From: Salminus brasiliensis | Taxonomy: Eukaryota; Chordata; Actinopteri; Characiformes; Bryconidae | DNA: 64,000 nt | Assembly: GCF_030463535.1 (NCBI RefSeq) | Contig: NC_132878.1 | Coordinates: 86,279,355-86,343,354, forward strand | Reading direction: 5' to 3' | Part shown: positions 27,142 through 57,062 of the stretch, one piece after another | How positions within the stretch are numbered: the stretch's first letter is position 1 | Layout of the letters: every line of letters starts with the position of its first letter | Notes under the pieces: generated by a model | What the model was told of the DNA's origin: nothing | What the model saw: the letters and a program-made list of their open reading frames with translations, nothing else | The model's database searches: none | Program-made: the position numbers and the translations under genes

Positions 27142-27277
27142 ATGTTCCGTTGTCAAGTGAATCTTTTGGATGACACCCGCATTGAGCGGAACCTGGAGGT
27201 CAGTCTTGGTTATACTGAAACAGATGTATGTCCCCCAAAAGTCAGTAAACACTTTCTGTCAAAAAGCACACATTTTC

Positions 27278-27321
<44 letters not shown>

Positions 27322-27927
27322 GAAAAATGCAGTGGGCCAGGTGCTGTTCGATGAGGTTTGTAATCATCTCAACCTGCTGGAAAGGGGCTACTTTGGCCTG
27401 GCAACGTGGGATTCCTCCAACAACAGGGTAATGAGTTAACACTGTTACACAGCATACACTGCTTATTACAGTCTTACAAAGCACAGCTTCACTCTATTAC
27501 ACAAGCTTGATCAGCCTTCAGAGAGACACCTCTCAGTATGTTAGCTGCATGTCTACATATAGTCGCATTTCTAGGCCTTAGAGTCCCACAAAACTTGGCA
27601 ACAGATGGTTGGAAATTCATTAATTCTCTATTCTTTGAAAAGTGTGGTGTCCATCACAGTTTCTCAACTGGCCTTCTTCTTCTACCTTCTTCAGGTGTGG
27701 CTGGACTTTTCTAGAGAAGTTCACAAGCAGATCATAGGTGTGGTTCTTTCTTTTGTGGAGTGTTTAAAGCATCTTCTTTCTGTGTGTTTATGTGCAGCTC
27801 TGCTTATGCTCTTCTCTTCTTGGTCTAATTTCAGGTCACGATGCTACCTTCACTTTTAATGTCAAGTTTTACCCACCTGATCCTTCCCTACTGGCGGAGG
27901 ACCTCACCAGGTACTCCATTCTACATA

Positions 27928-27977
<50 letters not shown>

Positions 27978-28725
27978 TGTTTTTCAGTGTCAAAGTGTGA
28001 GGCCATCCATGTGTCCTATGTGTTTTATATATTACCTATACACCGCATATTATGACCACCTTTTCATATAGGAGCAGTCTGTAGTTCTATAATTACAGAC
28101 TGTAGTCCTTCTGTTTCTCTGCATAGTTTGTTAGCCTCATTTCACCCTGTTTTTCAATGGTCAGGACCCCACAGTACCACCACAGAGCAGCTATTATTTA
28201 GGTGTTGGGTCATTCTCAGCACTGCAGTGACTCTTAACCTAACCCTAAGCTTACTTATAAACTTAACTATTGTAGAAGTGAAAATCTTGCAGTTTCTGCA
28301 GGAGTTTGCATCTATGAATTCCTTTTTTAGAAGCACCATAATGAAGTAAAGCATAATGATGTGGTGCTGCTGTTTTCTCACATATGAGGACATGACAGAC
28401 TGGGCTGTTTGTACATGGCAAAACAGCGCCCCAAGTGGACGTGACTTCCTTGTGAACTAGAAAATATGTACAAATGGGGCAAATTTATGAACACTCTGAG
28501 CAAATATGGTTCTATGTAGTCCAAAAACAGGGTTCTTTGATTCATAAGAGGGTTTACTTGTATTTGAAGAACCATTTAGATATAAATTGTTACTTCTAAA
28601 TAAAACCATTGCCTTGACTGCAGAACCATGAATAGAACCCTTTGTTTGAATTACATAATATTTTTTTTTATGTCTTTATCTATTTCACTTTATTTACTGA
28701 TTTGTAAGTGTGTGTGAATGTGTGA

Positions 28726-28763
<38 letters not shown>

Positions 28764-30217
28764 AGATATTTACTCTGTCTGCAGGTGAGGACGGACATCA
28801 TGACCAACCGTCTGCCCTGTCCATCAGATATGCTGGCAGTGTTGGGGGCGTACACAGTCCAGTCAGAGTTTGGGGATTATGACCCTGACGTACATGTGCC
28901 GGGCTACCTCAGGACCATACCTCTCGCACCCATTCAGACCCCAGAGCTGGAAGACAGTGTGACTGACTTGCATCGCACATACGAGTATGTTACCCATCTA
29001 TTCACACACTGTGTTTTTCTTTTTCCAGTTAATTAAACTTACACTTGATTGTAACACACATGGCCTCTAACCTGGGCAATTGTGATATGTTTCTTTGTAG
29101 CTCAACAAAGAGAATAGTGAACTTAATAATTTTACTATTAAATACTGCTACTATATAAGTATTATATTGTAAGTGCAGGGGAATGCCTCAACATTATTGC
29201 CCATGTTATTCACCTGTATGCTTTGCAGCAGATTAAGACTATAGAATGTCAGTACATTATTTCTTTAAAGGGTACATTTTCAAATGGTGTATATGAATGG
29301 TTGAAATGTAAACTGGAGAACAAAAGAGAAATTTAGCAGCCTGGCTTTCTGTACAATGGTGGCGTTGTGGTGGGATATCACATATACAGCACATTTTATA
29401 TAGCAATTTCATTTACGCTTCAAAACCATCAGTGAGCCAATACACATCTTCTTAGTTGTTATTTGCAATGTAATATAGTAGCGGTAAATCTGAGAAAGGA
29501 GAAGATAATCTTTTATTAGTCCCACAGTGGGGAAATTAGTACAACCAATAGTTTAAAAAAATAAATCTGTGTTAAGCCAAACCCGTATCCCAAAACTGTC
29601 AATTAAATGTAATTTAATAGCTTTTCTATGACGTTTTTTGAGGCATTACACACTTCAATTCTGACTTGGTAAACTTCCGAAGTCTTTTACGAAGTTTTTA
29701 TTACAAAGGGATTCCAGAAGTTGAGAGTAACAAATTTTGCTAAGAAACTTTTAGAATGAACTTCATTATCCAATGAGAAAAGAGCTTCCAGTTACATATG
29801 ATATGATGTGAATGTGACAGGGGTGAAATCAAGTCTTTAGACAAAGATGTTAGAGAAAAGTTTGATGAATTTGACAAAATGCATTGAAATAAATACAGTA
29901 ATTTATTTACATCCTTATTATTATTATTTACAGATTGGCAGGACCACAATTGTCATTTTAGACTGCAGTCTCCCATTAGTAAAAGAGTGTATATTGTTTT
30001 TTTGCTTGTGGTTTTTGTGTGTATTTGTGTAGGATTTTAGTGAAGGATGTTAGTGATTTGATAAATTTAGAGCATTTACCATCAAACCTCTCAGTTGTTT
30101 CTACTGATAAAGAAACATTTGTACTAACATATTTTGAAATGCTGGAATGTCTCAACATTTTGTTGAGAAATGTGTTAATATGTCTAACACATTCACTAAT
30201 AAACACATTATTGTGTG

Positions 30218-30278
<61 letters not shown>

Positions 30279-33200
30279 ATGCAGATCGATGACTCCTGCT
30301 CAGGCAGATGAGAACTTCCTTCAGAATGCTGTGACACTCCCTTTATATGGAGTAGACCTTCATCATGCAAAGGTAAAACATGTGACCATACTGTCCTCGT
30401 ACACTTTGTATATTTCATGTGTTTATGTGCTGGTGACACATTTGTGAACACCTCGATCTCTAGACTTGTTATTTAGTTGTTAATCTAATCATATGAAATT
30501 TGATAAAGCCTATAATTTGATAACCACTACATATCATTTGGGAACTACAAACCGGATTCCAAAAAAGTTGGGACACTAAACAAATTGTGAATAAAAACTG
30601 AATGCAATGATGTGGAGATGGCAAATGTCAATATTTTATTCGTAATAGAACATAGATGACAGATCAAAAGTTTAATCTGAGTAAATGTTACATTTTAAAG
30701 GAGAAATATGTTGATTCAAAATTTCATGGCGTCAACAAATCCCCAAAAAGTTGGGACAAGTAGCAATAAGTGGCTGAAAAAAGGAAATTGAGCATATAAC
30801 GAACAGCTGGAAGACCAATAAACACTAATTAGGTCATTTGACAACATGAAATGACTACAGGAAATGAGCTTCAAGTTAAATATGACATGATGTCTGTGTG
30901 AAATTGGTGAAGCATGAAGCCGGGTGTTTCTTTAAAAAAATGTTTGATGAATTTGACCAAATCCACTGAAACAAATATATAATCGTACAGTTTATACTTA
31001 TTTTTTTATATTATATATAAATAATAAGTATATTTTTATTTTATTTATATTATTGGATTAATATGTATTAAAATATCTGAACTGATTGGCAGGACCAAAA
31101 TGATCATTTAAGACTGTAGAGTCTCCTCTGAATAAATGAATGTGTGATTTTTTTCTGCTTGTGGTCTTTGTGTGTATTTGTGTAGGATGTTAGTGGAGGA
31201 GATGTGAAGCTGGGTGTGTGTGGTGATGGAGTGACGGTGTATGAGGGCAAGGCAGCGACACACAGTTACTCCTGGCCCAGAGTGCTGAAGATTTCGTATA
31301 TCCGCAACAAATTCCACTTCAGAATCCGCCACGCACAGGTAACCAATCGAAGTTTTATAATCCCATGATGTAGTCAACTATCTCCATTTTTGTCAGTTTT
31401 CTCCATGGTTTGAACCCTGTAGCTGCTCTATACACTGTGTACATAATTGTTTATTTGGCAACGATTAAATGTGCAATAACCAAAGATGTTAAAAGAATAT
31501 GCAGTAAGTCAGCAAGACACCAAGAAACTAGTACCCCTAACAACTGTGCAAGACCTGGTAAACCACCAACCCACCACCACCAGTCTTTTCCGAAGTTTTT
31601 ATTACAAAGGGATTCCAGAAGTCGAGAGAAACAAATTTTCATAAGAAACTTTTAGAATGAACTTCAGAACTGCATTATCCAATGAGAAAAGAGCTTCCAG
31701 TTACATATGACATGATGTGAATGTGACAGGTGTGGAACCAAGTGTTTCTTTAGACAAAGCAGTTGTCTGTTTTTAGTGTCATCCATTGTTTAAACCCTGT
31801 AGCTGCTCTATACATAATTGTGGATGGATAGGCCAACAGAATTGCTCTAAACAACTCTGAATAAACAGAATATACACCCGATACACCCGAAGAAATCAAG
31901 CTCCACTTTGGCCTTGGGCAATATCCCAGTATCCACAAGTGTTTCTTGCGCTGTGAAAAGATGACTCAACACTTTTGATCTGAAACAACGTTGAGCTGGA
32001 GAGAGGCTTTCATGGAATTGACTTTGAATTTTAATCAACATAATTTACTTAAGATGTAGTGAAAGCAGTTAAACACAACAAATTCTCTCATTTTAATATG
32101 TTGACATCCAAGTCAAGTTAACCAAGTCAAACAACCCCTTTGGGTAAGGAGTGGGGTCTGACCACACCGAACTCTGGACCGCAACATAGATGAACATGTG
32201 TGGGATTACTTGGACCAACTTTAAAGAAAGTAGATTTCTAGCCTTAAAACTGAAAGCAAGTCGGGTTTTTTTGTTTGTTTGTTTGTTTTTTGTGATGATG
32301 GAAACGAATCATTTGTACTTACTTTGGCCACCTTTACTGGAAATGAAGTAATGAAGGATGCTCTGTCTTTCACAGTATTTACTGACAATTTGCATATTTA
32401 ACAGGATGCTACTGAAAGTACCATCAGCTACATTCTGCCCAGCTACCGTGCCTGCAAACGACTGTGGAAAGTTGCTGTGGAGCACCATGCCTTCTTTAGG
32501 TGGGTGGGTGTGTGAGTGTTTTGTAGGAGTTAAAGTAGTTGACATTATATTATAATGTAATGAAGTGCATTGGTTTAATCTAAAAAATAAAAGTGCTGCA
32601 ACTGGCTCTTTGAGCGATGCTAATAAAGAACCGTTTCTGCTTCCATAACAGACTTTACATTCACTTCTTTAAATCTTATAAAGATATTAATTAGGGATGT
32701 CCAACAGTAAGTGAATCATGATCATATTTTTTATGATTCAAGTACCTTAATGCAGAGTATTGGCAGATAGAAATCCCATCATATCTGGTCTGATCTGATC
32801 TTTGCATTTCTATAAATAATACATCCACACAGTTTAGGTAGCATGTGCTGCTAAATAATACTCAAGTAAGCAGTTTATATAATGAGACATTCTGGGCTCA
32901 TTTATTTAGTTTGAAAGCCAACTTTGTTTAAAAATGACCATTTTATAGTGAGTTTAACCCAGCCCATGGGCCGCTGGCGGGCCGGAAGTGTTATTACAAA
33001 TTTCTGTTACCAAAGAATTGCCCCACCAGTTTCCACAAGTCCCTGTAGTTACTGAGTAACACGCCTAATTGTGTAATAAGCCTTGCTGCTTTATAGGGGT
33101 TAATATCTCATAATCATATAATCTAATAATAATTATCTAAGAGTAACTGACCCCCAATTAGTCAGTTCCCAGTTACTTTAAAACACTGCAGTGAAATCAG

Positions 33201-36200
33201 TGAAATCAATTGTGTTGGAACGAGGCAATACAGACTCTCTCTCTCTCTATATATATATATATATTTACCTACTGATGTAAAATAATTATTTTTAGTGTGG
33301 GGACCATGCTCTGCTTTTGTTTATTAGCATCCTCCACTGCACCCAGTAGTTAGGACTTCCTTATCACAAACAATGAAATCTTCAGACTTCTAAAGGTAAC
33401 AGACACATCTGTACAACACGTGTGTATCCTAGGAACCACCGTCAAGATAAGTATGAGGGAATCCTGCAACTAGGATCCAGGTTCCGGTTCCGTAGAAACA
33501 CCCATACTGAGACTCTGGAAGCCAGCTCCAACATCAAACGACCAGGTCCACCCGTCGCCCACACTGCAATCAAGAAAAAAGGTGTGTGTGTGTTTGTGTG
33601 TTATTTTGTGTCTGTGTGTACAGTGATCTATTGAGTGAGCTTATCCTATGTGTTAACTGCCAATGCCACCTTCCAGCAAAGGATAGCATGCTTCGGGCTT
33701 TAAGGAGCCCAACCCGAATTCAGCTTGACGATTGGTCCCAGGTGTTCAAGTTTGACCGCTCACGGCCCACTTCTATCCCAGGTAAACGTCCAACATGAAG
33801 CATTAGGTACACATTTATAACTGCCCTTTAGTATGCACAGCTATCCACGGATATATGGATTAATCAGCAGCAGAATAATGTTGCAACATTAACAAGCATA
33901 TCATCACTGTCCCGCAAAAACCTTGCATCTTCATAATGGCACCTTTACAGTAGAAGGTAAAAATCTTCTTCATATTTTACCCCAGGTGGTTTTGGAACAT
34001 TTCTATTGGTCCATTCATCATGTGATTTTGTTAGATTCGCAGTATGTCAAAAAAAGTGAAAATGCTTGCCATCAGCAGCCAGATTCCGAAAGAGCAGTTG
34101 GCCTTGCTCTCTCAGGGGTGGGTTGATGGCACTTCTTCCCCATATCACTCTTATCATACTCTAGATAGTCTGAGGAGACATGTGTTGGTCTTTACCCTTG
34201 TAGGATTGGGGGCATGAACGGGGATTGGGTAACTGGCCTTCCAAATTGGGTAAAAAATTAGGTACAATTTGAAAAACAGCAGAAATTTAGTTACAAGGTT
34301 TTTGCGTGACAGCGACAGTATGTTTGGAGACCTGTATGTAAAGACAGAATGCACAGAAATACTTCAGAGACATCGTAGTAATTGCTTTGTGTGTACAGAG
34401 ACCACCTATACCTACCAAGAGCCATCCACACAAGCTGTTACTAAGGTCCACAGACACAAGGTCACAAAGACAGGTGCAGATGAGGAGGAGGATGATGATG
34501 ATGATGTGCCAGAGGAAGAACAAGAGTGGTATCAGCTGCTTGGTGGACGTTCCGTACTCAAACAGGTCACTTTGTCCTCAGGTAAGTTCGGTCTTTTCCC
34601 CTCATTTAGCTACACTTTTCTCCCCTCTGTGTTCTGGATGTATTTCATTAAGAGAGAATTGCCCTCATGTGGGACATTTCTGTTACCGGGGAGCGTCCTG
34701 TGTGAACATTGCTTCATCCTAATCACCCTAATTCACCCACTTGGATTTCAGTTATTTGAGGTAGACCAACACTTAAAAGAGCTTGGGTGTCCCAAGTTAG
34801 GCAGTCCCCCTTATTAGGACAGTGCAACCTATTTTAGTACCAAAAACTGCTTTGTAATGGTGTGGTTCTGAGTATACTAGTAATAAAGGTTCCTCCAGTG
34901 ATCTTTTATCAGACATTGCATGCAAGTTCTTTAAACATTAAAAGGCCTGTATAATATGAAAAACAGCCCGTTTAGAAATCACTGTTTCTGTGATGTTACA
35001 AGAACCAACTCATTTATATATCTCCTCTCATTCAGCCTTCCACAGTTTAGCTCCACCCCTTTATACTGCAGATCACAGGAGAGTGCCAGCTCTGAGTACT
35101 TTCTGAATGAGACACAGCACAGGTCGTCTGACAGGCAGTCAGTCATTTGTCTGATATCCATCTTAAAGGTGCAGTAACAGAAACAGCTTGTTTAATTCTG
35201 AGAGTTAAGAGAGGTTGGAAATGGTGGTCTAAATATGATTTTTTTTTTTACCATATTTGGAACATAAACCTGCAGAAAGATTCTAAAGAAACCCTTCTGG
35301 CACTTTATTTTACAGTGGGTTTTTTCATAATGCATAATGTCTTCAGAGCTTGGTATTCCTTAACATGATTGTAAACATTTTGCAGATACTGAAAAATTGG
35401 AAAGTGCACAGCCCCACCGTTGGAAACACAATTCTAACGACTGGTTGGATCTCCTCTACCCCAAGACATCCGAATCCTCTTTTTGGGAACTGGAGACAAC
35501 ACCATGTAAGTTGGCAATCATATTCTTTATTATAATTGAAATGAAAAAGAAAATGATTAAACTGTATCCCATTGTACTAGAAATAAATAGGTCTGAGTGA
35601 CTGAGACCGCTGTGTATATTATATACATAAACAGTGAAAGCACAATGAACACAGTGTTTATTGTGTTATTGTCATTTTCTTATTATTTAAACTTAAAATT
35701 AACGCCAGAACTGTTATAGTAATTTTAAGATTCTCATCTATTTCTAGGTGAATAAGCAAGTTTAAGCACATTTGTGAAATTGGCTATGTTAATATCTTTC
35801 TACAAAAAGATTCTTCCAGTGAAGGCCTTGTTTAGATGATTATCTGGTAGACTGGATCTACTCATCAGGTGCTTTTGCCAGCAGCTTTAGTGCATTCAGT
35901 TTATTTCTATATTATATACACCAGCAATAACACGCTCAGTAATAACAGGTGTAGTGAAAGTAAAAAACCCTGATTATCTACAGTGGCTTCTGTCAAGGCA
36001 GCAAGTGAACAGTCAGTTCTTGAAAGTTATGAGTTAAAAGAAGAACAAATGGACAAGCATAATAATCTGAGACACTTTAGGAAGAACCAAACTGTGATGG
36101 CTAGACGACTGGGTCAGAACATCTCCAAAACATCAGGCAGGTCTTGTGGAGTTTTTCTGGTATGCAGTGGTCAGTACCTAAAGCAAAAGTGCTCCAAGAA

Positions 36201-39200
36201 AGGATAACCAATTAAATGGGTCATGGGCACCTAAGGCTCATTTATGTGGTCCATGGAGGGCCCGCCTCACAACTTACAGGACCTTAAAGGATCTGCTGCT
36301 AACGTCTTGGTGCCAGATACCACATGACACCTTCACAGGCCTCTGTTAGGATAAGAGCACTGTTAAGGTTGGTTGATTAATACCATAGAGGTTTTTTGTA
36401 TTCCTTTAAAGTGTAATTATAACTTCCATTCACTTGACTCAATTGTCCTATGTTTTACACTTTCTATTTCAACCTCCCTTTTTATGTTTTTTTTTTATAG
36501 TTTGATTTTATAGTTTTATTCTTTGATTTGTGATCAGCACTTTGAATCACCTTTGCCTATAAAATGTGATCTAGAAACTTCTCTTATCTAATTTTTCTGT
36601 TTGTTGTTGTTGTTGAAGCTGGAGATCAGAAAGAAGATTATGAGAAGAAAGAATGGAAAGCGAAAACTACAGAGGAGAGCACTAAGATTGTCAAAATAAC
36701 AAGAGCTGAAGGATTGCAGAAGGTTATTGAAGAAACACTAGAAGACGAGGGAGACATAGAGGGATTACAGAAAGTGATCATTGACAAACAGATGATACAG
36801 GAAGTAGAAATGTATGAGGGGCAACCTCAAGACGTTTTTGTTGAACAAAAGATAAGAAGGGTGGAAATAATAAAGGAAACAATAAAGGAAGTGATGATAG
36901 AGGAAAGTCAGAAGGCTCCTGAAGAAAAGATAAAAGGATTAGAGAAAAGATTACTAGAAGTGGAGACTATTGAAAAGAGACTGCAGGATGTCGAAGATCT
37001 GAAAGTCAGATTACAGCAAGTAGAAATGTTGGAGAGGAAACTGGAGCAAGAACAGCGGGAACAGCTGCGAGATGAGCGGGAAGCTTGGTACATTCTGCTG
37101 GATCACAAACCATTAGTGTCAGGTATGCGTGATCAGCTCTGTAATACTCACCACATACCAGGTCATGTTCATCCCATATTTACATACATTTACTCATATT
37201 TACTCAAATGCAATTCTCAGCCAAATGGAAAGTCTCTCAGCCTAGATGTGTTTGGTGTCCAAAGTTACCCTTATTTCCTTTTGCACTGGAACTCGGAAAC
37301 TAATGTAGCTAACAAGTACTGGATACTTACATCCTCCAGTTAGCATTGTACAAACCGCAGGCCTAAAGATCACTCGCTTTCCTTAAAACAGTTGTTAAAG
37401 TGTCTGTGTTTTCTTCATTGTACTAATTTGTGCTGAGGTCCCAAATCAGAAATAATTCATTTTAATATGATACATTAAAATTAAACACATTTATTTACTC
37501 TGTTGTTAAAACAGATTTATGTAAATGAGTTATGTTCCGATTGGTTGTCCGATTGGTAACATTCAGTATGCATTTAAAATAAATATATTAAAGATCAATT
37601 ATATACATGTATCTTCACACTTTAATACATTTATGTTTACAGTCAGCGGTTCTAATGAATCGACTGATGAGTAATTTATGGTATATATAAATAGTAGTCA
37701 TATCTAATAATCTGCAGTAAGAATGAGCGAACTCCAGGTCTGAGATGTGTACTGTGGTATAAATGATATCCTCATCTGATCTCCATTAGAGCTCATTGAG
37801 ATGGTTCAGCATAGAGAAGCCGTAAAAAAGATGGAAGAGGAGCCACCGCAAAAGGTCACACCACTCCAGATCCGAGGTATCTGGCATATTCTGCTGGAAT
37901 TACTGCCACGATCACAATGGGCCACCCATCTTCCACGGGCTCCTTCAGGTACTTATTTTATTTACTTTACATACTTAATTACTTGTCTTAAACCGCACCA
38001 GGTTTTATATATGTTGCTTCATCACATATTACAGTGTGCAGACTGTTGTCAAGACCCTCAAAAGTGTGAAAATCATTCATTTCATAGGTCACCAAATGTT
38101 CTCCAAGAGCCTAATGTTAAAATTATATTATCTACAGACTGTTCATTTGCTTCACTCAAGTCTGTTTTTGCTGTCGCACATCATCCACAAACAGCGGTTT
38201 GTTGTTGCTCGTTTTGGCAAATGACCCTTCCCTGTAAAAGTAAGCAGTTCTTGACAGTGAGGGATCAAACCCACCAGGCTCTCTGGTTGACAGGCATGTG
38301 TCTTATTCAGACTGGATTAGTTCATCAGGGGGACATCTGTAATTAAACATTTTACACACCTCCTTAGTGATAAAACTCTCACACCCAGACGACAATAAAG
38401 GTACCACCGGATAACCTGCAGAAGGTGTGCAATAAATAGATTTCTCACTTTTTATTTTAGTGGAGGAAATCGTCCAGGAGCCTGTGTCATACATGGCAGT
38501 AGAGGAGAAGAGATGGCAGGAGGAGATGAGACTACGAGAGGAGAGGAGGAGATCAAGTCAGATAACCACACAATATACCTTCCCGGCCGAGAGAAAGCCG
38601 CAGACGGACGAGAGGGACGACTGGTTTAACCTGCTGGATGCTTCTTCTAAAGAATCAAGTAAACCCTTAACCATAACAGACAAAGTGCATTATGATCAGA
38701 TTTCATAGGACAAAACACACCAATGTTTAATTACTGTCAATTCCATTCGTTTATACTGTTTATTAATAATCAGTTTTAGCAGGTGCTATAGATAATGACC
38801 ATTTTCCCATTCTTTCTATGAAATCTAATAATAATTATGTAAAAATAGCTGTTTTTCAGCTGAGTATTGATAGATGGCAAGCATTACATTCACAACAACG
38901 TTCAGAAATATAAAATATTCATGGCCTGGGAATCATTTACAATTTTTAGCACCATTTTCTGTCTCTGGGCACCAACAACAGCCAATAACCCACTAACAGC
39001 CGTATTAGTATTCAGAAATAAAAAGCTTTTCCCAGCACAGAGTGAAAAGACAGGGTGCAATTGGCAATAGTATATAAAGTTGGTGTAAATCCAAGAGAAC
39101 AAGAGAGTTCAGTCAAAACAAGGCATGTCAGGTTTGATGCTCTTTTAGGTTCTCATGATTTATCACCAAATACTGTGATAACAAGATATTTTTAGAAAAT

Positions 39201-42200
39201 ATTATGATGTAGAATTTGATCAGTACCACCAAGCCCTACAAGGTAACAATAGTGCTTTGACGGTTCCAGTGATGGGTTATTCGTCACAGGGTTGTGGGGC
39301 AATCCGTTTTCAGAACAAGAGCTATGTTATTTTATACACCTGAGTTTTTGAGCCACCTGTGTACACACACCTCAGCCTGACACGAGTAATTCACTGTGAA
39401 TCTTGTTTGTTCTAGTGTTTGGCAAAGTTATGGAGCTCTATGAGGAGACCAAAGAGGAGAAGGTGAGGCTTGTTGAAGAGCAAATGAGTTTCATAAAGAT
39501 GGAAATGCCCTTTGAATTCGTCCCGAGGACTCCAGAAGAACTGCAAGAAAGTGACCGCTGGTTTCTGCTTTTGGACCCAATACCTTTGGAGAAGAGAAGT
39601 GTTCTATCAGGTAAAGATGTGTGTCTGCGTCACATCTGTACAAGCAGCCATACAAATTTCCCCTTTAACAACTGTCTTTTCGCAGTGATCACCATTACTT
39701 TATGTATAAAGTACCAGTCAAAAGTTTGGTTAAATGTGTGCTGATTATCATCTTAAAAATATTTGATCCAAATACTACGGTGGCCATACGCATGTTTTCA
39801 GAAAAAGAGAACATTGGAGACACATGACTATCCACTGTAGTTAAGATGTCGTGGCTAGAGGGGTTTTTATTAGGCCTAAGTTGTAGGACTGTGGCAGTGT
39901 GGATGTGTGAGGGTGGAAATACCTCTCAAACCATGCAGCTACGGTTAAGGTTAATGTACATAAAGAGAGATAGAGATAGCCTTAATAGCCTGTATGACAC
40001 ACATTTAGGGGCAGTGGTGGCTCAGCGGTTAGAGCACTGGTCTATTGATAACAAGGTTGTCGGCTCGGCAAGCTGCCACTGTTGGACCCTTGAGCAAGGC
40101 CCTTTACCCTTTCTGCTCCCCGGGCGCTGGAGTTGGCTGCTCACCGCTCTGGGTGCGTGTGTGTGTACTCACTGCCCCTAGTTCACTAGTGTGTGATTGA
40201 GTGTGTGTTCACTACCACAGATGGGTTAAATGCGGAGGACACATTTCGCTGTACAGTGACAAATACGTGTACCTTTACCTTTTTTTTACCTTTTGACCAA
40301 ACCATCTCCTTTTAGTTCTATGCACAACTTAGGCCTACTTAAAACCCCCCAGCCACAACATCCTAACTACAGCTTGATCATATCCTAAAATATGATCATC
40401 CTAGTTTTTGGATCAGATGTTTTTAGGATGATGATCAGTACACATTCAACCAGGTGTGTCTGAGCTTTTGACTGGTACTGTATATTTTTTCTTTATATAA
40501 AATTTTCTTTATATTTGTTATTGTATATAGTCATTTTCAACTAAAAAAATTCACTGTTTGTTTACTATGTCTTTTATGAGAACCCATAGCTCCATAGAGC
40601 TTTGGTTTTCCTGAAACAAGCACTGTGCATTGATCATTAATAGCAGTAGTTCATTAACATGTCAGTATTTATTGGCCTTTGTTAAGAACACTGCTCATGA
40701 AAACACTGCAGAGGCAATGACAGGCCAATACTGTGATAATCTCCACTGGATATTTCTGCATATTTATTGTGGTAAACTGTTGGTTTCTGCAATTTATGAA
40801 CATTAGAGCATTCCTTTTTCAGTAAACAACAAATCAAATACTTGTTGCAGCCCTAGACAGTAGAAAGTTTATTCTGCTCATTCTTGCTGAAACTCATGCA
40901 TCATTTCTTTCATTTATTTTAATTCGCAAATTCATTTTTAACCTCTGCCATCACAGATCCTCTGGAAATAAGGATGAAAGAGGAGCAAGCATGGAGACTG
41001 AAAGAAGAAGAAAAGAAAAGGCAGCTAGAGAAGAAGAAGACGATTGCTGAAGAAACAGGTACAGATACACCCCACCCACACCCACCGCTTACAAACTCAA
41101 ATTAGAACAAATGTTCCACTTAGGGGTTGGCAATATAATAATATTTGATCATATTGTGAATTAAATTTCTTTAAAAAAAAGTGAAGAACAATGATCAGCT
41201 GCATGTTTTGTAATTAGACAGGTTTAATTGGATGAAGTGCAACACATTAAAAAATCAAATACAAAATCAACAAAAAAAAACAAATAAAAAATCCCTGGAG
41301 AATTAGTTTTTAGGAATCTGGCGCAACAAATGCATTTTGTCTATAATTACATTTATCATAATAAATATCATGAAAATGTAAAATATATATTAAAATATCA
41401 AGATATAATATTTTTCTACCATATTGACCACCCCTAGTCCTACTACTAACGAAGCTGAAGGACTGCTCTCTGAATCTTAATGTCTTAACCTGCTGCTTAA
41501 TACACCTGATTGTCTATTCACATGCATATATTTGTTATTTATTTATTCTGTTGGTTTATATTTCATTATTATATTATAATTTCCTGTCATATTTTTTGTC
41601 AGCTGTCCATGTGGTGGTGACAGTGATTGAAGAGAAGAAAGCTGAACAGAAGATCAGAATGGAGGAAGTGAGGAAGGAACAGAAGGAACTCATCATTGTG
41701 GAGAAGAGAGAAGTGCAGCTTCTACCAGAGAGAGAAGCAACAACCCAGAGAGATATTTACGATGACTGGTTTATCCTTTTGGATAAATATCCTAAAGGTA
41801 ACAGGGGGTCAGCCAGGTGTCCCTCAGTATTAAATATGTCATGAACCTAAACTTCACCAAGCCTCAGAAAGCGAAGAGAAATGTCTTACAGTAAAGCGAC
41901 AAGAACCTAAAACTGCTATGTACAGGAATGAGACACAGTGTCTTCACACCACATCTTCATGTTCAAATATGATTCTCTTAAAAATAACAAAACACAGTTC
42001 CCATGTTCACACCTAGCTGCAACTGAAAGTAAGTGTATTCTGCATAACGTATGTTTGCTGTGTGTTTCAGTGCCCGTGGCTGAGGTATATGAAGACACAG
42101 TAGGCCTGAGAATCCAGCCAAGAGTCTCAACAGTGTCTGAGCAGGTGACCATCATGGAAAAGGTAGCAATCATTGAAGAGAGGCCCTCGATCATTGAAGA

Positions 42201-45200
42201 GAAGAGAGAAGTCAGAGCTGGAGAAGTGGAGAGGAAGGTTCCAGCTGTGCTGGCTGATGATGACAACAGCTGGTTTGTGCTCTTTGACAAAGCACCGTTT
42301 GCTGAGAGTGTTCCCATAGGTAATGACACCAGACCCTCACTCATGGTTCAGTCTAAGTCTCTAAGCTAGGACAGACTTGGTAAATACCTGACCACTTCAA
42401 ATCATTCATTTATAGTATTACATGATAATAGTAATTTATAGAACAGACAATAGTAATTTATTGTGAACTCAAAGGATCTGTCAGTGGCATTGATTTTACA
42501 GTTATTCCTGAATAATAGTTACTTGAAAACAGTAAACCCTTAAATGTGTCAAATAATGTATTTATTGAGTAGTTTAAGCAGTTCTTTGATGTAGGATTGG
42601 CAAGTGTGTGACTTTGGTTGTGACAAAAAATGCTTAGATGTTTTTTTTTCAACCCTGTTTACAACCCTGTTGTTTAGCCTCAGAAGGAAACACACTGATA
42701 TTCCTTTTATGAAAAGCTCTGCTACTGGCTGGTTTACAGATACGGAGAAAGCTTGCAGAATGTGCACATTTTAGCATAGTTTTAACACTGTAAAACAGAT
42801 TGTAGGGGGGTTAGCTTCTAGCCTTACCCCTCTTACTTTCCCAGATTTAGCTTTCTCAAGTCATACGAGTGATGTGTGTTTAGCTTCGCTCTGGTAGTCA
42901 GCTGAGGTAGTCCAGTTTGTTGTCGAGGGAACAGACAATGTAGAAAAGAGGTGGTTCAGAGTCTGGATGATGAGCTGCTCTTCAGTGTTAGAAATATCAA
43001 CTACAACATATTTGACTAAGCCCACTTCAATGCTAAAGGGAAAACCATGTGACCCAAGCCTGAGTTGTTTTTGTTGATTTGCTCATTAATCTCTCTTTGA
43101 CTGCTGCAGAGGTTTCAGACTCATGGTATGCAGAGGAGAAGATATATAGAGAGATAAAAGAGAGGAGGATCCAAGAGGAGCAGAAGAGAAAACGTGAGGC
43201 CGAGGACAGAGTTGCTCGCGTAACTGTGGAGACAGAAGAGGAGTTTGAGATGGAGGAGGGTGAAGATTGGTTCATCCTTCTGCGAACATTAGGTAAACAG
43301 AGATGCACATGGCTGTCGTTTTTTGAGTTGCAGTCTCTATTGCCTGGAGGTCTAAGTGTCTGTTTCTTTTCCCATGTGTCTCTCTCCATCTCTCCTCTGG
43401 ATGTAAACACAGCGGACAGGAGAGCCGAGGCAGAGCGGCGTAGAAAAGAAGAGGAGTGGGAGAAGCAAGTCATGGTTGAGGAAAGGAGAAAAGGATCAAC
43501 CAAACCAGATATTATGTTTATTTATCAGAGAGATGTTAAGGATGACTGGTTTCTACTTATGGATGCTTCTATTAAAGTGATAGGTAAACACATTTTTACT
43601 CATACGCTATATGGACAAATGTATAAGGACACCTGCTCATTTATTGCCTCTTCTGAAATCAAGGCTAGTAAAAAAAAAAATCATCCTTTTTAGTTGGCCT
43701 AACTGCCTCTACTGTCCAGGGAAGGCTTTATACTAGATTTTGGAGCATTACTGTGGTGAATTGATTGTGTTCAGCAACAAGAGTGTTGGTGAGGTCAGGA
43801 TGTTGGGTGATCACTATCCCCACCTCATCCCCAACTCCCTAGACCATCCCAAAAGGATTAGATGGAGCACCAACCATCATTCCAGAGAACACTGTTCCAC
43901 TGTTTATACCCCCAATAAGTTCATCTGCTCCAGAAGGTCCAACTTAGCAGTACTTCACTACAGGGACTAGACCAGCTGTGTGTGTGTGTGTGTGTGCATT
44001 TTCACATCTGTGTCAGGAAGTAGCACAGTAGCTAAATGCATTCAATAGCAGGGGTGTCCACAAACATTTGGACAAACATTTGGACATATTGTGTACTTTG
44101 TATCTACACTCATGTTCAACTATTGAAAATACCTTACATGCAGTGCGTATATATAATGCACAGGGTCTTCAAGGCTGGAACAGAGGACCACTGTGGCAGG
44201 TGGTAATCAGTCATAATGAGCAATTCAATCTCTCTGTTTGTAGATCGTGAAACTCCCCCCTCCATCTCCCCTCCAGTGGTTGTGCCTAAACCCCGTCCAG
44301 AGCCTACACCCCGTCCAGAGCTTAAACCACGACCAGAGCTTAAACCCCGTCCAGAGCTAAAACCTCGTCCAGAGCTTAAACCCCGTCCAGAGCTTAAACC
44401 CCGTCCAGAGCCTACACCCCGTCCAGAGTTTAAACCCCGTCCAGTGCTTCCGGCTGACCATCCAATGACCTCCACTCCCACTGCACAACCTGCCTCCTTC
44501 ACCAGACCCTCCTTTCAGGACGAGACACTGAAGAGCCTGGATTACACACAGGAATCTGAGGTTTGCAACACACATGCAAACACATACACACACACACACA
44601 TACACACACATGTACGCTATAAACCTACAAACCTTAAACTGAAGCTGGGGCTCAGCAGTCTAATGCGCAACCCCTACGGCTCGGGGGTGGCTAGTTATAA
44701 CCATGATCTTGAACCATGCTGCTTTGCCATCAGCAGCTGGAGTCAGAGAGAGCACAATTGGCTGTAGTCGTGGGTGGGAATATGATTCTCTGTCCTCTCA
44801 TCACACTCAGGCGGTGTTGGCAGGCGCAGGCGTCTGTTAGCAGGTGTGGTAGACTTGGGCACCCGGCGCTTTCCCCTGAGCGTGACAGCTGCTGTAAAAA
44901 TTTGGAAGTGGTAGTGGATTGCTTCACATGTATCGACATGAGACATGTGTGAAGTCCTTACCCTCCTAGTGTAGGGGGCATTGCTAGTGCTAAGAATGGG
45001 TGGGTTATTTGGCAGTACCAAATTGGGGAAAAAGAGAAACGTTAATGAAACTAATTTATATATATAAGAAAGAAATAAACTATAGCTATCATGTTTCATA
45101 CATGGTGAACAATGTAAGTGGAAGTTGGGAATTCTTAAAAATCCATTTCAGTGTAAAACTACTGTAGATGTAATTTCATTGCTTTCTCTGCCATTACAGC

Positions 45201-48200
45201 TGGAACCAGAGTCAAGCCTTATCATAAAGGTAAAGAACTAAATCTCTCCTTTCTTTTATATCTTAATTTATATCTTAACTAGTAATCATATCTGACACTA
45301 TGAAATTATGAAACTATGACAAAGAATAATTCAACTCAAAAGTTGTCCAGTACTTCATTTAGGCCTGGAAATATGGCCAAAATGTCTATATTACTGCTGT
45401 GATGCAAGAACCTTGTACAGTTTTTCCCTTTTTAACATTATATGAATCTGGCAGTTGTTCTTATAATCTATCAAAATTTCATGATGAATGGAGCAATGGA
45501 AATTCTCCACAATCTTTTTACATTGACTTCCATTGAAAGTTAAGAAGGTTTCTTCCTTCTCCTTTAAAGTTGCCATTTGAAGTTGCAAGGTTTTTGCATA
45601 ACAGCTACGATATACAGTATTATTGGTATCTAAGAATTTGATGTAAAGCTTCTGCATTGCTGACCTTTGCCTCTTTGTTTTTAACCGATCACAGAGAATG
45701 ATGAAGAGAATGCAGAATGAAAGCATTTATGTCCGTCACAGCAAGCGAATGTTGGAGGTATGTGGACGTTAAGATTTACTTAATGCCGACGCTAGCTCAT
45801 ATGTTCTCAAACACACTCACTCTCTCTTACAGGGCAGTGATGTAGCCCATGAGGTGGTACTGAAGCAACATGCCAGCACCAGTGAGCTAAAGCGGAACTA
45901 CATGGAAGATGTGCCGGTGTTTGGCCCCACCGACTGGGACAAGCGCCTCTCCACCCACAGTCCTGTCCGCATCCCTCAGACAATCAGTGACCAGGTCCTC
46001 ATCAGCATGGACACAGTGAGTCACACAAACATAGACTGTATGCCCTCTAGCTGCCTGATGTCATTTATGTTGCTTTGCAGTGTTTACTGGATGAAACAAA
46101 CAGCTGCATTTATTTACTGCATTTAAATATCAGGAGCATATACACCAATGTTATATATTTCCCATGTAAATTATTCTGCCATATTTAAGCTTAAAGCTTC
46201 AAATTTCACTTACATAGTATTCAACCAAGTAGCATTATGTAAACTGTGTGTCTAAATCAGACACACAGACACAAACCACATCAAGTAGTCTTTAGTAGAC
46301 TTGCTTATGTGGTTTCTGAGAGTGTATGACATCCTGTTATCTACAGACATGTAAAAAATGTAAAAGCCAAGGAAACCCCCTTTTTAACATATCTAAATAA
46401 ATGGACATGTGATCTTCATTGGAACAATATTGAGAGATGGGGTCATTTAACAGAACATATACAACTAAAGAAATATATTTAATCTAATGTAAAAGAAATG
46501 TAAGAAAATGTGGAGAAATGTAATTACCATTTGTAAAAATGTAATTCATAGAATTTTAGTTTACTTTTGAGTTTAAAGTTGGTACACCCCACATTTGTAT
46601 TACTATGGCTAAAATGGAAGAAATGAGAATCAGGTGCAACACATCAGAGAGGATTTTAGGCTGTGTCCGAAACTGTGCTCTATTCACTATTCCCTACATG
46701 TGGAAATCTGAATCACCATTATAGGGAACAGAATTCACTACATACAAGATAATGAATGACTTGTTATACATGTGAGCTCACAGCTGTACGACAGCAGAGT
46801 ATGTATCATAAGCAGTCTGAATATCACTCTACCTCAGAGAAGCTACACGCAAATCATCAAGCCAAACAACGCGATGGATTATAGGTGTTTTAGTGTACAT
46901 CGTTTGTAGGCTACATATTACGGTAGTAATACCGTGGGATTGTTACAGTGCGCTAAAAATTTGGCACTAACTGGCACTAAAATTTGGGCACCAAACACCA
47001 AAGTAGTGCAAATTGTTTTGTTATGTTAAAGGCATAAGTTCCTTGAGGAACCGGTGGATCTGAAACGGTGGATGAACCTCTTAAGGTGTTTTGAGGAACC
47101 TTCAAAAAGAAAGGGTCCCTCAAAGCACTGTAAGAGATTTCGCTGTCCACTAAATCATTTCTCTACAGAACATTTAAAACAACTGCCAACATGTCCAGAT
47201 CAGGCTGACCTAGAAACTTCAAGTCTCCAACAATCCTAAAATGTCATCACAGGATCTACAGGCAGCTCTTGCCACAGTTAATGTCAAAGTGCAGTATCTA
47301 CCATCAGAAAGAGACTGTACAAGTTTGATTTTCATGGTGCACGTGGAGGAAACCCTTAACGTACATTTATCTGTTCAGAGTACATTGATCCAGAAGTCCT
47401 GATCTTTGTTTTGGCGTTCTCTGGCAAACTTTAGTCTTATCCAGATGCTTTTCTTTGACGACAAGGACTTCCTCCATTTCTTAAAGTTGTGACTATATAT
47501 TTATATCACATTTGATCCATATATGTATATGGACATTGTACCATAATGGTTTAATAGTGTGTCCTCATTGTTTCACATGACTTTAAACAAATGAACATAA
47601 GAATTCACATAGCAAAAAACATTATTAGCAGAAGTACCATGTTGAAGGCGTCGTAGTCCATTCATTTTAGAATTGTTCGAGGAGAAAATTGTGTATGTTT
47701 CATTTCATTTATTCCTTTATTGTGTGAGCATCCTTTTAACTTTGTTTCTTGCCTTCTGCAGCTGGAAACAGAGACAGTCATTATCAGACAGGTCAGACAC
47801 TCAATCCCTCCTTTCTCTTTCATCTATTTACTGTACATTCAAGGTGACAAGTTGTTAAGTAATCTTAGACATACTGTACAGGGGATGTACAACATAATGG
47901 AAATGCCACATAAAACATTCATAATTACAATATAATTACAGACTGTAGCCCATCTGTTAATGCGCAGCCACCTATTCATCATCCACCATTGGAAAGAGAC
48001 CATCTTAGGACCACCACTGACTAATTGGATGGTGGACCATTTTCAAAACTGCAGTGCCACTGACATGATAGAGACGTCTTAGTATGTGTTGAGAAATGTT
48101 CACAGACTGAAAATATATAGCCGACACTGGTCTTGTGGTCAGAAACTGACCAGGGAGGAAGGGCTATAGAAACACATATTGCACATGAAAGAACAGTAAC

Positions 48201-48903
48201 TAAGGTAGCTAGCTGTACACCTATACTGTGGTAAGGGTAAGTGCAGACTGCACCCAAGCAACACTGCTGAGACTGATACAGTCATAGTAGTGGGACACAA
48301 ACATGCCTACCTAACAGCTGTGCTGATAATAGATGTGCTGTTCATCACCTAAATAATATCTGGTGTATGGCGGTCCTGTCATGGTCCTTTTCCGCTGATT
48401 GATTGGGTAGATGAGGCCAGCAAATAGTGAATGAAAATATGGGCTACAGTCACACAGTGAGTGTAAACATACAAAGTGCTGCTGTACGTAAGTGTACCTA
48501 GCAAAGTGGCCAGTGAGTTTGATTGTTTAATATGAGGTTTCCATATTTCCATTTTTTGGACACCTCCTGTATTTGCTTATGAGGTCTCTGACACTGTATG
48601 ACATATTGTTTCTAAACAAATGTACAGACAAAATATGAGGTTGCTATCGACCATTTTTAGCTACACTTAGCTACTTTTGTCATTTTTTATAATGAAACGT
48701 TTGTCATATAGTGTGAGAGAACCTCTGTGGATCAAATTATGTTATTATGGATCCACCCTGTTGCCTTGCCTTACAATTGGTTTTATGGAAGCGGAAAAAA
48801 ATAGAGAGTGAATGAAAAGGATCCATCACTAACACATGGTTTTACTTTCCAGGTGGTAGAAGAAGAAGTGTCGGACATCACTGAAACGTCTTTTTCTTAC
48901 TAA
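27142..48903 (+). CDS. epb41: Protein 4.1 family cytoskeletal adaptor (FERM-FA-W-motif array-SAB), 1340 aa, 27 coding exons
   Basis: Links spectrin-actin to membrane proteins (family knowledge). Exons: 27142-27198, 27323-27427, 27695-27737, 27835-27910, 28766-28984, 30285-30372, 31186-31338, 32405-32499, 33433-33581, 33677-33781, 34399-34581, 35386-35505, 36619-37122, 37790-37948, 38461-38658, 39416-39610, 40957-41058, 41603-41797, 42071-42319, 43110-43292, 43413-43583, 44244-44560, 45200-45229, 45695-45757, 45833-46015, 47762-47791, 48853-48903. All junctions are GT-AG and phases close to 1341 codons. FERM at residues 1-279 ([25 protein letters not shown]), FA at 280-330 (LGSRFRFR), repeat array 329-1116, Pro-rich 1117-1222, SAB 1233-1314 ([21 protein letters not shown]). 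The canonical 4.1 C-terminal domain is absent. The start matches the internal ATG (80-kDa form) of 4.1R, and an in-frame TGA lies upstream. Upstream headpiece exons were not found. It could be an ohnolog rather than strict EPB41. Confidence 0.9.
27279..27320 (+). repeat. (TG)n tract forming the 3' splice site of FERM exon 2
   Basis: About 19 TG units end in tatag just before the exon at 27323. Confidence 0.9.
27928..27973 (+). repeat. (CA)n microsatellite after FERM exon 4
   Basis: About 22 CA units start 18 bp past the exon end at 27910. Confidence 0.9.
28711..28760 (+). repeat. (TG)n tract before FERM exon 5
   Basis: An interrupted TG run ends tgtatgtag directly at the exon start 28766. 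Confidence 0.9.
30213..30276 (+). repeat. (TG)n tract before FERM exon 6
   Basis: About 31 TG units with one TT interruption, then ttaatgcag and the exon at 30285. Confidence 0.9.
30541..30880. repeat. Dispersed fish repeat (aaccggattccaaaaaagtt family)
   Basis: The motif ccaaaaaagttgggacac recurs in weaker form at 30742 (ccccaaaaagttgggacaag). The left part resembles a very common non-autonomous fish DNA element. It is intronic. Confidence 0.5.
34060..34265 (+). mobile_element. SINE-like repeat family C, copy 1
   Basis: The run gagcagttggccttgctctc followed by ggggtgggttgatggc, and later ccaaattgggtaaaaaatta, is shared in diverged form with 44645-45045. It is intronic. Confidence 0.5.
35835..36345 (+). 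mobile_element. Internally deleted Tc1-like element in an intron of the 4.1 gene
   Basis: DNA blocks gtgatggctagacgactgg, tctggtatgcagtggtcagt and later ggatctgctgctaacgtctt belong to one common fish Tc1 family, with most of the transposase middle removed. Its start carries an acceptor-like tctacag at about 35982 and an open frame to 36207. Confidence 0.7.
36619..37122 (+). other. Largest array exon: coiled coil with 10-residue repeats
   Basis: This 504-bp exon encodes about 168 residues. The units [30 protein letters not shown] and [10 protein letters not shown] are four tandem decapeptides, and GLQKVI occurs twice upstream. It ends with EAWYILLD. The composition predicts a long charged helix (inference). 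Confidence 0.85.
39706..40490. mobile_element. Tc1-like non-autonomous element with nested SINE
   Basis: The left end aagtaccagtcaaaagtttg is mirrored by the right end gcttttgactggtactgtat. A SINE occupies about 40008-40280. It lies in the intron between array exons 16 and 17. Confidence 0.7.
40008..40280 (+). mobile_element. tRNA-derived SINE, plus orientation
   Basis: The head ggggcagtggtggctcagcg is A-box-like and is followed by a diverged B box. The body shares ctgccactgttg, ctcactgcccctag and atgggttaaatg with the copy at 14765-15012. The tail is gtgacaaatacgtgtacctt. Confidence 0.75.
41121..41437. mobile_element. MITE copy 4 (same family as 14631), diverged
   Basis: The ends taggggttggcaatataata and ccatattgaccacccctag are mirrored; the inner block ggatgaagtgcaacac matches the other copies. 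Confidence 0.6.
43606..44089. mobile_element. Non-autonomous DNA transposon family A, copy 2
   Basis: The ends tatggacaaatgtataagg and ggggtgtccacaaacatttg are shared with 24634 and 59202. It is in reverse orientation relative to copy 1. Confidence 0.65.
44244..44560 (+). other. Exon 22 of the 4.1 gene: coding minisatellite, nine PRPELK-type units
   Basis: From about 44290 to 44450 an 18-bp unit (ccccgtccagagcttaaa) repeats nine times with PT, LK or FK variants. This gives a Pro-rich, SH3- or polyproline-like stretch between the W-motif array and the SAB region. Phase 1 in, phase 0 out. Confidence 0.9.
44645..45045 (+). mobile_element. SINE-like repeat family C, copy 2
   Basis: Includes agagagcacaattggc and, near the end, gaatgggtgggttatttggc and ccaaattgggga. 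It shares a theme with 34060-34265. Confidence 0.5.
45200..45229 (+). other. 30-bp microexon ([10 protein letters not shown]) of the 4.1 gene, duplicate of 47762-47791
   Basis: Phase 0-0. It has 22 of 30 bases in common with the microexon at 47762 ([10 protein letters not shown]). The downstream intron start is also alike (ctctcctttcttt versus ccctcctttctct), so exon and flank were duplicated together. Confidence 0.7.
45695..46015 (+). other. Spectrin-actin-binding (SAB) exons of the 4.1 gene
   Basis: The 63-bp exon 45695-45757 ([13 protein letters not shown]) corresponds to 4.1R exon 16, also 63 bp, whose inclusion controls spectrin-actin binding in red-cell maturation (known). Exon 45833-46015 carries [11 protein letters not shown] and [11 protein letters not shown], the conserved SAB core. 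Confidence 0.85.
46667..46965. mobile_element. MITE family D, copy 1
   Basis: It begins gctgtgtccgaaactgtgct then ctattcactat. This matches the reverse complement of the right end of the copy at 55328-55703. Confidence 0.6.
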
Positions 48904-49000
48904 TACATTAATCCCAGATGCACTGCAGTTATAGCTTTTGTACCACATTAATAATGCATTTTAATCATTAGAGCTTGTATTTGATACTAGTCTATATACA

Positions 49001-49993
49001 GTTGGTGGGGAGTTTACATGCACTTATCATGGACATGAATGTATTGACAATATTGGGTTTCCAGGGATTTTTGGGGCAGAATGAGTGAACAACATGCATC
49101 TTACAGGAACACAGGGTCAAATATATATGTGCAGGGTCAAAAATTTTTACCCACTTGCTTAGGCCACAGACTCTTAACTTTCTGTTAGTGATCATGATCG
49201 ACTACAGCTGGTAGCTTCTCTGTGCTCACATTAAAGGGTTTATTACACTGATTGGAATGACCAACACACAGTACAATGAGAAAGGTTCAAGATAGTATTC
49301 AATATTTCAATTCAATAGTTCAAGTCTCAGTATAGGTCTGAGAAGGATGGGTGTAGATTTACACAAGTCAGAAATGTCTCTTGGAGCCATTTCTAGACAA
49401 CTGCAGGTTCCAAGATCACCAGTTCAAACAATTGTAAGATGATGCATTCAACCCCAAGAACACTGTACCAACTGTTGAACCTGGTGGTGGTAGCATCATC
49501 GTGCTCTGGGGTAGTTGTGCTGTGAGTTGAATTGGTACATTGCCAAGTAGGTGTTCAAAACAGGACAACCTCAAACGCACATTAAAGATGGCTGTGTAAT
49601 AGAAAAAACAGGCCAACATTAAGCTTTTGGATTGGTATTCAGCCACCTCAGCCACAACCCTATTGAAAATATGTAGACTGAGCCTTAGAGTGAGGTCTGT
49701 GCCAAAAAACCAACACATTAAACTGAACTCTATAAAGTCTGCCAGGAACATCAAATATCCAACCAAGATTCTGACAGAAACGTGTTGTTGCAGTTAACTG
49801 AATATTAACCGAATATGTAGTGTGTTGTATGTATATTTCTGACCCTGTATTAATTTCAGAAGATTCTCAAAATGTAAGCATGTGCACAACATATATGTTA
49901 AAGATGTATGTTGTTCACTCATTCTGGCCCGGAAACAAAGCCAGTTAAAATAATTTCATGATGAGTGTATGTAAATGTCTGACCAAACTGTGT
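49001..49993 (+). mobile_element. Deleted Tc1-like element, about 990 bp
   Basis: The left end acagttggtggggagtttac and right end gtaaatgtctgaccaaactg are mirrored imperfectly. Decayed transposase-like DNA lies between, with many stops. Confidence 0.65.
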
Positions 49994-51276
49994 TATAATA
50001 CACAACATGCTGCGATTCCTATAACCTTTGTGAGAAGCTACATAGTGAGTAATTAATGAGAGAAAAATCTTTTTCATGTTTTTAGGAGTAGATTGATGAA
50101 AGCAATATCTTTGACTAAAGCTACAACCCAGCTAAATGAAAGTCTACCACTGTGTTAATTTAGCATTGCTGATCCCACAAAACCTATCATTAGGAGACCA
50201 ATTTGGAATGACTCTCAGTACATTTTGATTTCTAACAAAAGAACAAAACTGACTAAAACTAAACTAAACTTTTTTGGAAAATATAAACACAACTTTCTAT
50301 TGATTTCTAACTAAAATACACAAACTAAAAGAAGCAGGGTGAATGTTCCTGTGCACTGAAAAATATTGCACTAAATTCAACTTAATTTTCTCATTAACAT
50401 AGAAGGTCAACACAGTTTTGTTTGGAATATCAGTCTTGTAATAAATTAAAGAATACATGTGAAAAAGTTTGGGTTTGTGTACTGTATATTTTATGTGAGT
50501 ACTTTGTGTTTATATGACACATATTTTCCTATATATACTTTTTTAATTGGATGTAATTTTATGTTTGACACCTGCACAAAGAGAAATTCTTTGTACACCG
50601 ATGTGATGAATATAGATTCTGATTCCAATTCTGATAAATTAATTAAGCTGAATCTCAAAAATATAGTTTTTCATGCATTGCTTCAGGCATGATTCAGGTA
50701 CCTTAAACTGGTCACATACTTATAAGGGAGAAATCCACTGATTATTTTTATATTCTACATAGTAATTCAAAGGATAAGATGTAAACAAAGTTATGTATTA
50801 TCCAATTTGTTATGGTTTTATGTGAGATGCTCCATTGTAAAGAAATTTGTTGAATGTTGAAATTGTGTTGAATGTTTTTTGAATACGCTGCCCAATTCAT
50901 AATGAGAGGGCTTTGGGATTAAAACAGTCCCTCATTGGCAGAGAGGTACGTTTAAGGCATCATTAGGCAAAAAAAGCCTACCAATGTTTTACCATGATCA
51001 ACATTACACTTACAAAACTCTAAAGGTGTGCAGGTGTATTGTAGGCAGTGTGGAGGCAGGACATTAGTCCGAGTTCTTTTTTTACTGTTGCTCTCAGTAG
51101 AGTCCAAAACAATGTCCATAGAACTAATGAGAGCAGTTAGGTCCACCCATGAACAATAACAAAACACTAAAGTAACAAAGTGCAGAATGATTACAAAAGC
51201 CAGAGAACAGACCCACAGAGTGTTTAACACCCAGGTAGTATCTTCAACAATCAACAATGCAAGATGAAGACACAGA

Positions 51277-56213: not shown

Positions 56214-57062
<849 letters not shown>

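Follow-up and report, generated by a model that had tools for sequence, protein, structure and literature searches.

Protein 4.1R, in its 80-kDa form, begins at the FERM domain. Human 4.1R (EPB41) further carries a FERM-adjacent (FA) segment and a spectrin–actin-binding (SAB) domain, and its exon 16 peptide of 21 residues is described in the review PMC10887211 as promoting the spectrin–actin interaction. Among short docking motifs built around tryptophan, LC3-interacting regions (LIRs) are described as strands in PMC7564214, which also gives sub-nanomolar dissociation constants for the ankyrin-B LIR and GABARAPs. Here, we analyzed a stretch of 64,000 nucleotides of the Salminus brasiliensis genome (the window; contig NC_132878.1, G000:C1:86279355-86343354), searching the whole assembly of 1.066 Gb on 103 contigs and the PDB for relatives. 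The window holds a 4.1R-like gene that shares the FERM domain, an FA-like segment, a 21-residue exon-16-like start of the SAB domain and the SAB domain itself with human 4.1R and with a paralog on contig C3. It differs from both by the 12 extra symmetric exons with tryptophan motifs and the KPRPEL repeat that separate FERM from SAB, by a C-terminal domain (CTD) that went undetected, and by an open model that, like the 80-kDa form, begins at FERM. On balance, we favor the explanation that this gene is a diverged 4.1R paralog with a lineage-specific multivalent array of putative docking motifs.

Twelve symmetric exons between FERM and SAB

The gene model was spliced by hand and covers the sequence from the ATG at 27142 onward. 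It comprises 25 exons on the forward strand (27142 to 46015; Table 1), with AG at 24 of 24 acceptors and GT at 25 of 25 donors, and encodes 1314 residues (1314 codons) without a stop. Pfam FERM_N, FERM_M and FERM_C all scored above their cut-offs in the model protein, and the best relative of this region in the PDB was human 4.1R (358 bits), followed by 4.1B (335 bits). The FA profile reached 26.1 bits on its exon, below the cut-off of 30.6. The SAB domain scored 61 bits against a Pfam cut-off of 27, with a genome search in agreement, and exon E15, in which the SAB match starts, has the same length (21 residues) as the human exon 16 peptide. Within the array part of the model, Pfam returned no family at E up to 1. 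An earlier note on this DNA, written from its letters, had placed the array exons between the FERM and SAB parts of a 4.1 gene; the in-frame joins to both sides and the 4.1R-like FERM bear this out.

The array exons E1–E12 span 33677-43583. All 12 have AG and GT ends and phase 1-1, and their lengths of 105, 183, 120, 504, 159, 198, 195, 102, 195, 249, 183 and 171 nt are all divisible by three, confirming the claimed run of twelve consecutive exons of like phase. Joined in frame to the FERM and SAB exons, they form 788 stop-free codons, for which the chance at window composition is ~10^-23; the chance that 12 lengths are all divisible by three is ~10^-5.7. Both odds are rough, because the exon ends were chosen by hand. 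GC content by codon position is 0.571/0.313/0.485 in E1–E12 and 0.371 in the introns. These odds, together with the splice ends and the stop-free 25-exon model, make it highly improbable that the array is an artefact of chance frames or belongs to an unexpressed, decaying gene, to which the long FERM branch and the lack of a detected CTD (see below) would otherwise lend some weight. Judged from its sequence, the array is a real, coding-looking and unusual feature, limited to this gene as far as examined.

Complementarily, we evaluated whether the frame survives the joining of distant exons. Among 91 forward joins from the FA exon to E13, 89 were stop-free, and the two others, E3-E5 and E3-E11, yielded TAG because E3 ends in T. 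Skipping single exons kept the frame open in 11 of 12 cases. The exception is E4, the largest exon, whose skipping is not neutral because E3 then joins E5, giving a stop. The earlier suggestion that the exons can be skipped or multiplied without a frame change thus stands for 89 of the 91 joins and fails for the skip of E4 and for E3-E11.

Table 1. Exons of the gene model, in window coordinates
Feature	Position	Strand	Basis
FERM exons	27142-27198, 27323-27427, 27695-27737, 27835-27910, 28766-28984, 30285-30372, 31186-31338, 32405-32499 (whole 27142..32499)	+	in-frame splice, Pfam, PDB match
FA exon	33433..33581	+	donor phase 1; FA profile
E1, motif DDWSQVFK (weakest)	33677..33781	+	phase, PSSM, W alignment
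E2, motif QEWYQLLG	34399..34581	+	phase, PSSM, W alignment
E3, motif NDWLDLLY; final base T	35386..35505	+	phase, PSSM, W alignment
E4, 504 nt, long charged helix, motif EAWYILLD	36619..37122	+	phase, PSSM, W alignment, AF2 helix
E5, motif GIWHILLE	37790..37948	+	phase, PSSM, W alignment
E6, motif DDWFNLLD	38461..38658	+	phase, PSSM, W alignment
E7, motif DRWFLLLD	39416..39610	+	phase, PSSM, W alignment
E8, charged, helix-like, without docking motif	40957..41058	+	phase
E9, motif DDWFILLD	41603..41797	+	phase, PSSM, W alignment
E10, motif NSWFVLFD	42071..42319	+	phase, PSSM, W alignment
E11, motif EDWFILLR	43110..43292	+	phase, PSSM, W alignment
E12, motif DDWFLLMD	43413..43583	+	phase, PSSM, W alignment
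E13, proline-rich exon	44244..44560	+	entry in phase 1, exit in phase 0; about nine KPRPEL repeats of 18 nt
E14, 10 residues	45200..45229	+	phase 0, spliced model
E15, 63 nt / 21 residues, SAB match starts here	45695..45757	+	spliced model, Pfam
E16, remaining SAB and linker after SAB; last exon placed	45833..46015	+	SAB above cut-off
PSSM, position-specific scoring matrix; AF2, AlphaFold2.

One motif retained in eleven exons

Eleven of the 12 exons, all but E8, carry the motif W-[F/Y]-x-L-[L/F/M]-[D/E], with its tryptophan 7-21 residues before the exon end. When aligned on this residue (11/11), position +3 reads V in E1 followed by ten L, and position +4 is as constrained (L/F/M in 11/11; in exon order F,L,L,L,L,L,L,L,F,L,M). 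Position +1 is hydrophobic in 9 of 11 (S,Y,L,Y,H,F,F,F,F,F,F). An acidic residue occupies each of -1, -2 and +5 in seven of the 11 motifs, and the remaining positions vary. Odds computed on such columns are post hoc, because W had been picked as the anchor beforehand. The consensus D-D-W-F-x-L-L-D in eleven exons and the invariant W with L or V at +3, both proposed earlier, were recovered in this alignment, with +4 now constrained like +3.

A PSSM built from the 11 sites scored them at 18.5-31.1, values trained on the same sites, while the next best match in the window reached 9.2; ten Markov-resampled windows contained 0-5 matches of 10 or more each. With each site left out in turn, the scores were 25.4 (E6), 24.9 (E9), 21.2 (E7), 18.2 (E4), 16.2 (E11), 14.9 (E12), 9.5 (E10), 7.7 (E3), 5.5 (E2), 5.5 (E5) and 1.0 (E1). 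The last five motifs rest on their position at the exon end, because their score alone is no better than that of chance matches. The flanks upstream of the motifs, in turn, showed no overall homology compared to shuffles (mean z 0.13, with a highest pairwise z of 4.3 for E9-E12), and the motif is therefore the part retained, as the earlier note had held. Such retention amid diverged flanks fits constraint on a putative docking motif.

An early second tryptophan lies in the charged stretch of E4, E6, E8, E11 and E12 (36619-43583). As E8 has only this early residue and E9 only the docking motif, E8 and E9 possibly represent one unit split by an intron.

Kinship and origin of the array

Across the genome, the SAB profile identified seven loci including this gene, and the CTD profile gave 16 matches at the six other SAB/CTD loci. 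This gene gave no CTD match at E up to 0.01. Five paralog CTD pieces, searched by tblastn in 45901-64000, returned chance-level matches only, with no convincing CTD remnant. The absence of a detected CTD argues for a 4.1R-derived paralog rather than a full 4.1 protein. FERM identity is 58% to human 4.1R and 52-56% to four paralogs (56% to that on C3). In a small FERM tree, the gene groups with the C3 paralog beside human 4.1R at weak support (0.538), with a branch of 0.63 compared to 0.17 for C3; the tree is rough, because its rows were pieced together from tblastn matches whose ends include some residues owed to chance, and the C14 row covers 221 of 278 columns. By these comparisons, the gene is a 4.1R-like paralog that diverges fast and has no detectable CTD. 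From the tree, we infer that the paralogs on C25, C27 and C14 are of 4.1G/B/N type; C3 is presumably epb41b and the gene studied here epb41a. PMC11426453 names epb41b, slc4a1a, ank1a and sptb together for a spleen cluster in catfish; the open PMC literature returned no paper on epb41a with zebrafish.

The interval between FERM and SAB was examined in four of the six other loci (C27, C25, C14 and C3; C1:31 Mb and C5 were left out), and the PSSM revealed no array of tryptophan motifs in any of the four. The paralogs on C25, C27 and C14 share the FERM-SAB order and the phase-1 donor after FA with this gene, and continue from SAB into a CTD; unlike this gene, they lack a row of W-motif sites in the FERM-SAB interval. 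The best PSSM scores were 13.0, 11.6, 8.8 and 13.3 in the fetched stretches of C27, C25, C14 and C3 (100, 100, 15 and 18 kb, respectively), and 9.3, 11.6, 8.8 and 8.6 inside the interval on the gene strand. These matches are scattered singles, as frequent as in resampled DNA. At C1:31 Mb and C5, genome searches gave no match to a strict motif pattern or to the E9-E10 protein.

Paralog exon boundaries, judged by eye from homology, indicate where the array lies. The FA exon ends after SLDG at a phase-1 GT in all four paralogs examined, a second possible FA donor in C3 is also phase 1, and the C3 exon after FA has a phase-1 acceptor and a possible phase-0 donor, the same arrangement as in E13. 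E1–E12 therefore sit between the counterparts of two neighboring exons, in an old phase-1 intron. A gain in this gene would be a simpler account of the array than its loss from the paralogs.

The strict pattern, [DE][DE]W[FY]x(L/F)(L/F)[DE], yielded 16 matches genome-wide, compared to 23 for a reversed control. Two clusters emerged, one in this window (E6, E9) and one at C1:94.29 Mb; the remaining matches were single, four of them being one repeated sequence. The strict pattern recovers two of the 11 motifs of this array and could therefore miss weaker arrays elsewhere. The cluster of DEWFILLD frames at C1:94286270-94287049 was rejected as a second array, since 1500 bases there are a TGGA-rich satellite mimicking repeats. 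The E9-E10 protein matched E9, E10 and E12 (E 0.004) and one further row on C7 at E 8.3. Against PDB sequences, the 788-residue array had no match at E up to 1; a profile of the motif returned seven SAKe6 chains (E 0.038-0.89), which we discarded as summed weak repeats with no single significant stretch. A plasmid search with the E4 DNA found no match and was uninformative. Among the matches listed in the open PMC literature, the titles and abstract openings describe no such array. PMC13297032, considered as a report on LIRs in 4.1R, was set aside because it concerns myogenin stability.

Neighboring features

The KPRPEL repeats of E13, about nine 18-nt units at 44287-44449, lie in the linker that joins the array to SAB. 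After E16, a gtgagt donor offers a splice site, or the frame may run on to a stop ending at 46126 (46015-46126), and no exon 3' of E16 could be placed. The intron between E7 and E8 contains a stretch (40012-40300) that, by eye, resembles a tRNA-derived short interspersed nuclear element. Upstream on the same strand, open frames for RING, B-box and PRY-SPRY mark a TRIM-type gene at 13714-19690.

Candidate readings of the motif

To rank possible functions, 13 motif patterns were counted in the array and compared to 500 shuffles in which W was kept fixed and the other residues were permuted within exons. The LIR core, the GABARAP-type GIM and DDW are described in the cited papers; the other patterns follow the ELM resource and common usage. 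Seven of the 13 exceeded all 500 shuffles because all seven share the same conserved residues; the readings are therefore ranked here, and no partner is identified. The clathrin box, the kinesin light chain W-acidic motif, AP2 WxxF, GAE and the LD-motif were each rejected at 0/11, and a SUMO-interaction-like pattern fitted 6/11 (control mean 0.50).

A helical hydrophobic WxxL-phi motif, docking some partner or the protein's own FERM lobe, is a possible, if tentative, reading. NR-box and FxxLF peptides are comparable helical docking motifs. W, L/V at +3 and L/F/M at +4 recur in 11/11 at the spacing i, i+1, i+3, i+4, and a looser WxxL-phi-like pattern also fits 11/11 (control mean 0.41). In an AlphaFold2 model of E4 alone, predicted from a single sequence, a helix at 101-161 includes the motif (block mean predicted local distance difference test score, pLDDT, 88; whole model 68.9). 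A second model from eight aligned window pieces, with E9 first, gave one helix at 2-60 (mean pLDDT 71.6), but the helical reading has to contend with the low confidence of the E9 motif in it, with the single-sequence input for E4 and with the lack of a partner. The inputs were shallow and charged helices are easily predicted; with this proviso, the models lean towards a motif at a helix end and against a pre-formed LIR strand.

The same models bear on a structural spacer, in which the motif would end or pack charged helices and the array would set linker length without any partner. Helix-prone charged flanks and predicted helices running through the motif would suit such a spacer; a spacer need not, however, retain W and L while its flanks lose overall similarity, and we consider it rather unlikely.

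Alternatively, the motifs may be LIRs, so that about ten candidate ATG8 sites would tie autophagosomal or other ATG8-coated membranes to the spectrin–actin skeleton, in the manner of single ankyrin LIRs with GABARAP, for which ankyrin-B sets a high-affinity precedent. We regard this as somewhat unlikely. The LIR core [ED].{0,2}W..[ILV] fits 10 of 11 motifs, all but E5, compared to a shuffled mean of 1.26 (0/500 reach 10); the general LIR pattern likewise fits 10/11 (shuffled mean 2.22), and none of the eight other W residues of the array matches it. This acidic-W-x-x-L core is common to the LIRs of p62, ankyrin-B/G and PCM1, from which the array differs by the extra constraint on +1 and +4 and by some ten tandem candidate copies on separate exons. 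According to PMC6499816, a peptide array of the FIP200 LIR showed improved LC3B binding with hydrophobic, aromatic or acidic residues at +4, whereas M and most polar or basic residues brought no gain; the +4 hydrophobics found here match this preference, with the exception of M in E12. A proline at +6 to +8, reported there for the LIRs of PCM1, ULK1, ATG13 and FIP200, is present in 6/11 motifs (p ~0.001, post hoc). In turn, the LIR is a post hoc pick among patterns of which more than half beat all shuffles, and its core needs neither the aromatic residue at +1 nor the hydrophobic one at +4, yet both are constrained. The GABARAP-type GIM [WFY][VI]xV, likewise described in PMC6499816, fits 0/11, E5 does not conform to the core, and the predicted models indicate a helix rather than a strand; a helical LIR is reported for Trim5alpha in PMC6254359.

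Two further readings account for part of the residues. Acidic dileucine sorting signals for AP adaptors, [DE]xxxL[LI], fit 7/11 motifs (shuffled mean 0.16; loose form 7/11, mean 0.41) but not every copy: E1, E4, E5 and E10 deviate, and the tryptophan in 11/11 would be left unexplained, which makes this reading very unlikely. Arp2/3-binding acidic motifs of the cortactin DDW type, where DDW is required for Arp3 binding according to PMC5675706, would correspond to [DE][DE]W in 5/11 (control mean 0.54). The other 6/11 motifs lack DDW-type residues and the invariant hydrophobics at +3 and +4 have no place in such a motif, rendering this reading most improbable.

Discussion

The explanation we favor, a diverged 4.1R paralog with a multivalent putative docking array, would proceed as follows. 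Symmetric phase 1-1 exons would have been added in the phase-1 intron next to the FA exon of the paralogs, on its 3' side, each except E8 contributing a charged, helix-prone spacer and a copy of [D/E]-W-[F/Y]-x-L-[L/F/M]-[D/E]. The protein would be anchored to the membrane via FERM and to spectrin–actin via SAB. By presenting a single docking site in up to eleven copies, the array would hold a cytosolic partner with avidity and gather it into clusters at the membrane skeleton. Gain, loss or in-frame skipping would be possible for most of the exons.

Several observations weigh against this explanation. The exons are hand-placed predictions, and five of the 11 motifs (E10, E3, E2, E5 and E1) lie at or near background by leave-one-out score. 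The long FERM branch and the CTD that was not found could mean relaxed constraint. The motif may also serve structurally, as the end of a helix: the E4 motif lies in a predicted helix, and the helix assigned to the E9 motif has low confidence (ten-residue block pLDDT 59). For ATG8 in particular, the lack of any GIM fit and the fit of the pattern to other motif classes count as well. Among the named partners, ATG8 (LC3/GABARAP) is nonetheless the likeliest and also the most testable, with a rather small chance of being the right one.

If the array docks a partner, it would show in a clear way how symmetric exons can multiply a short linear motif in a membrane-skeleton protein, with copy number, spacing and partner legible exon by exon, and would suggest that the 4.1 scaffold can drop its CTD and acquire a multivalent motif array. 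The most far-reaching version, which we hold to be unlikely, is a 4.1R paralog turned multivalent autophagy scaffold, in which about ten ATG8 motifs on exchangeable exons would tether LC3/GABARAP membranes to the spectrin–actin cortex, with the dose set by exon number. Were ATG8 indeed the partner, the spectrin–actin cortex would be linked to autophagic membranes with a high number of motifs.

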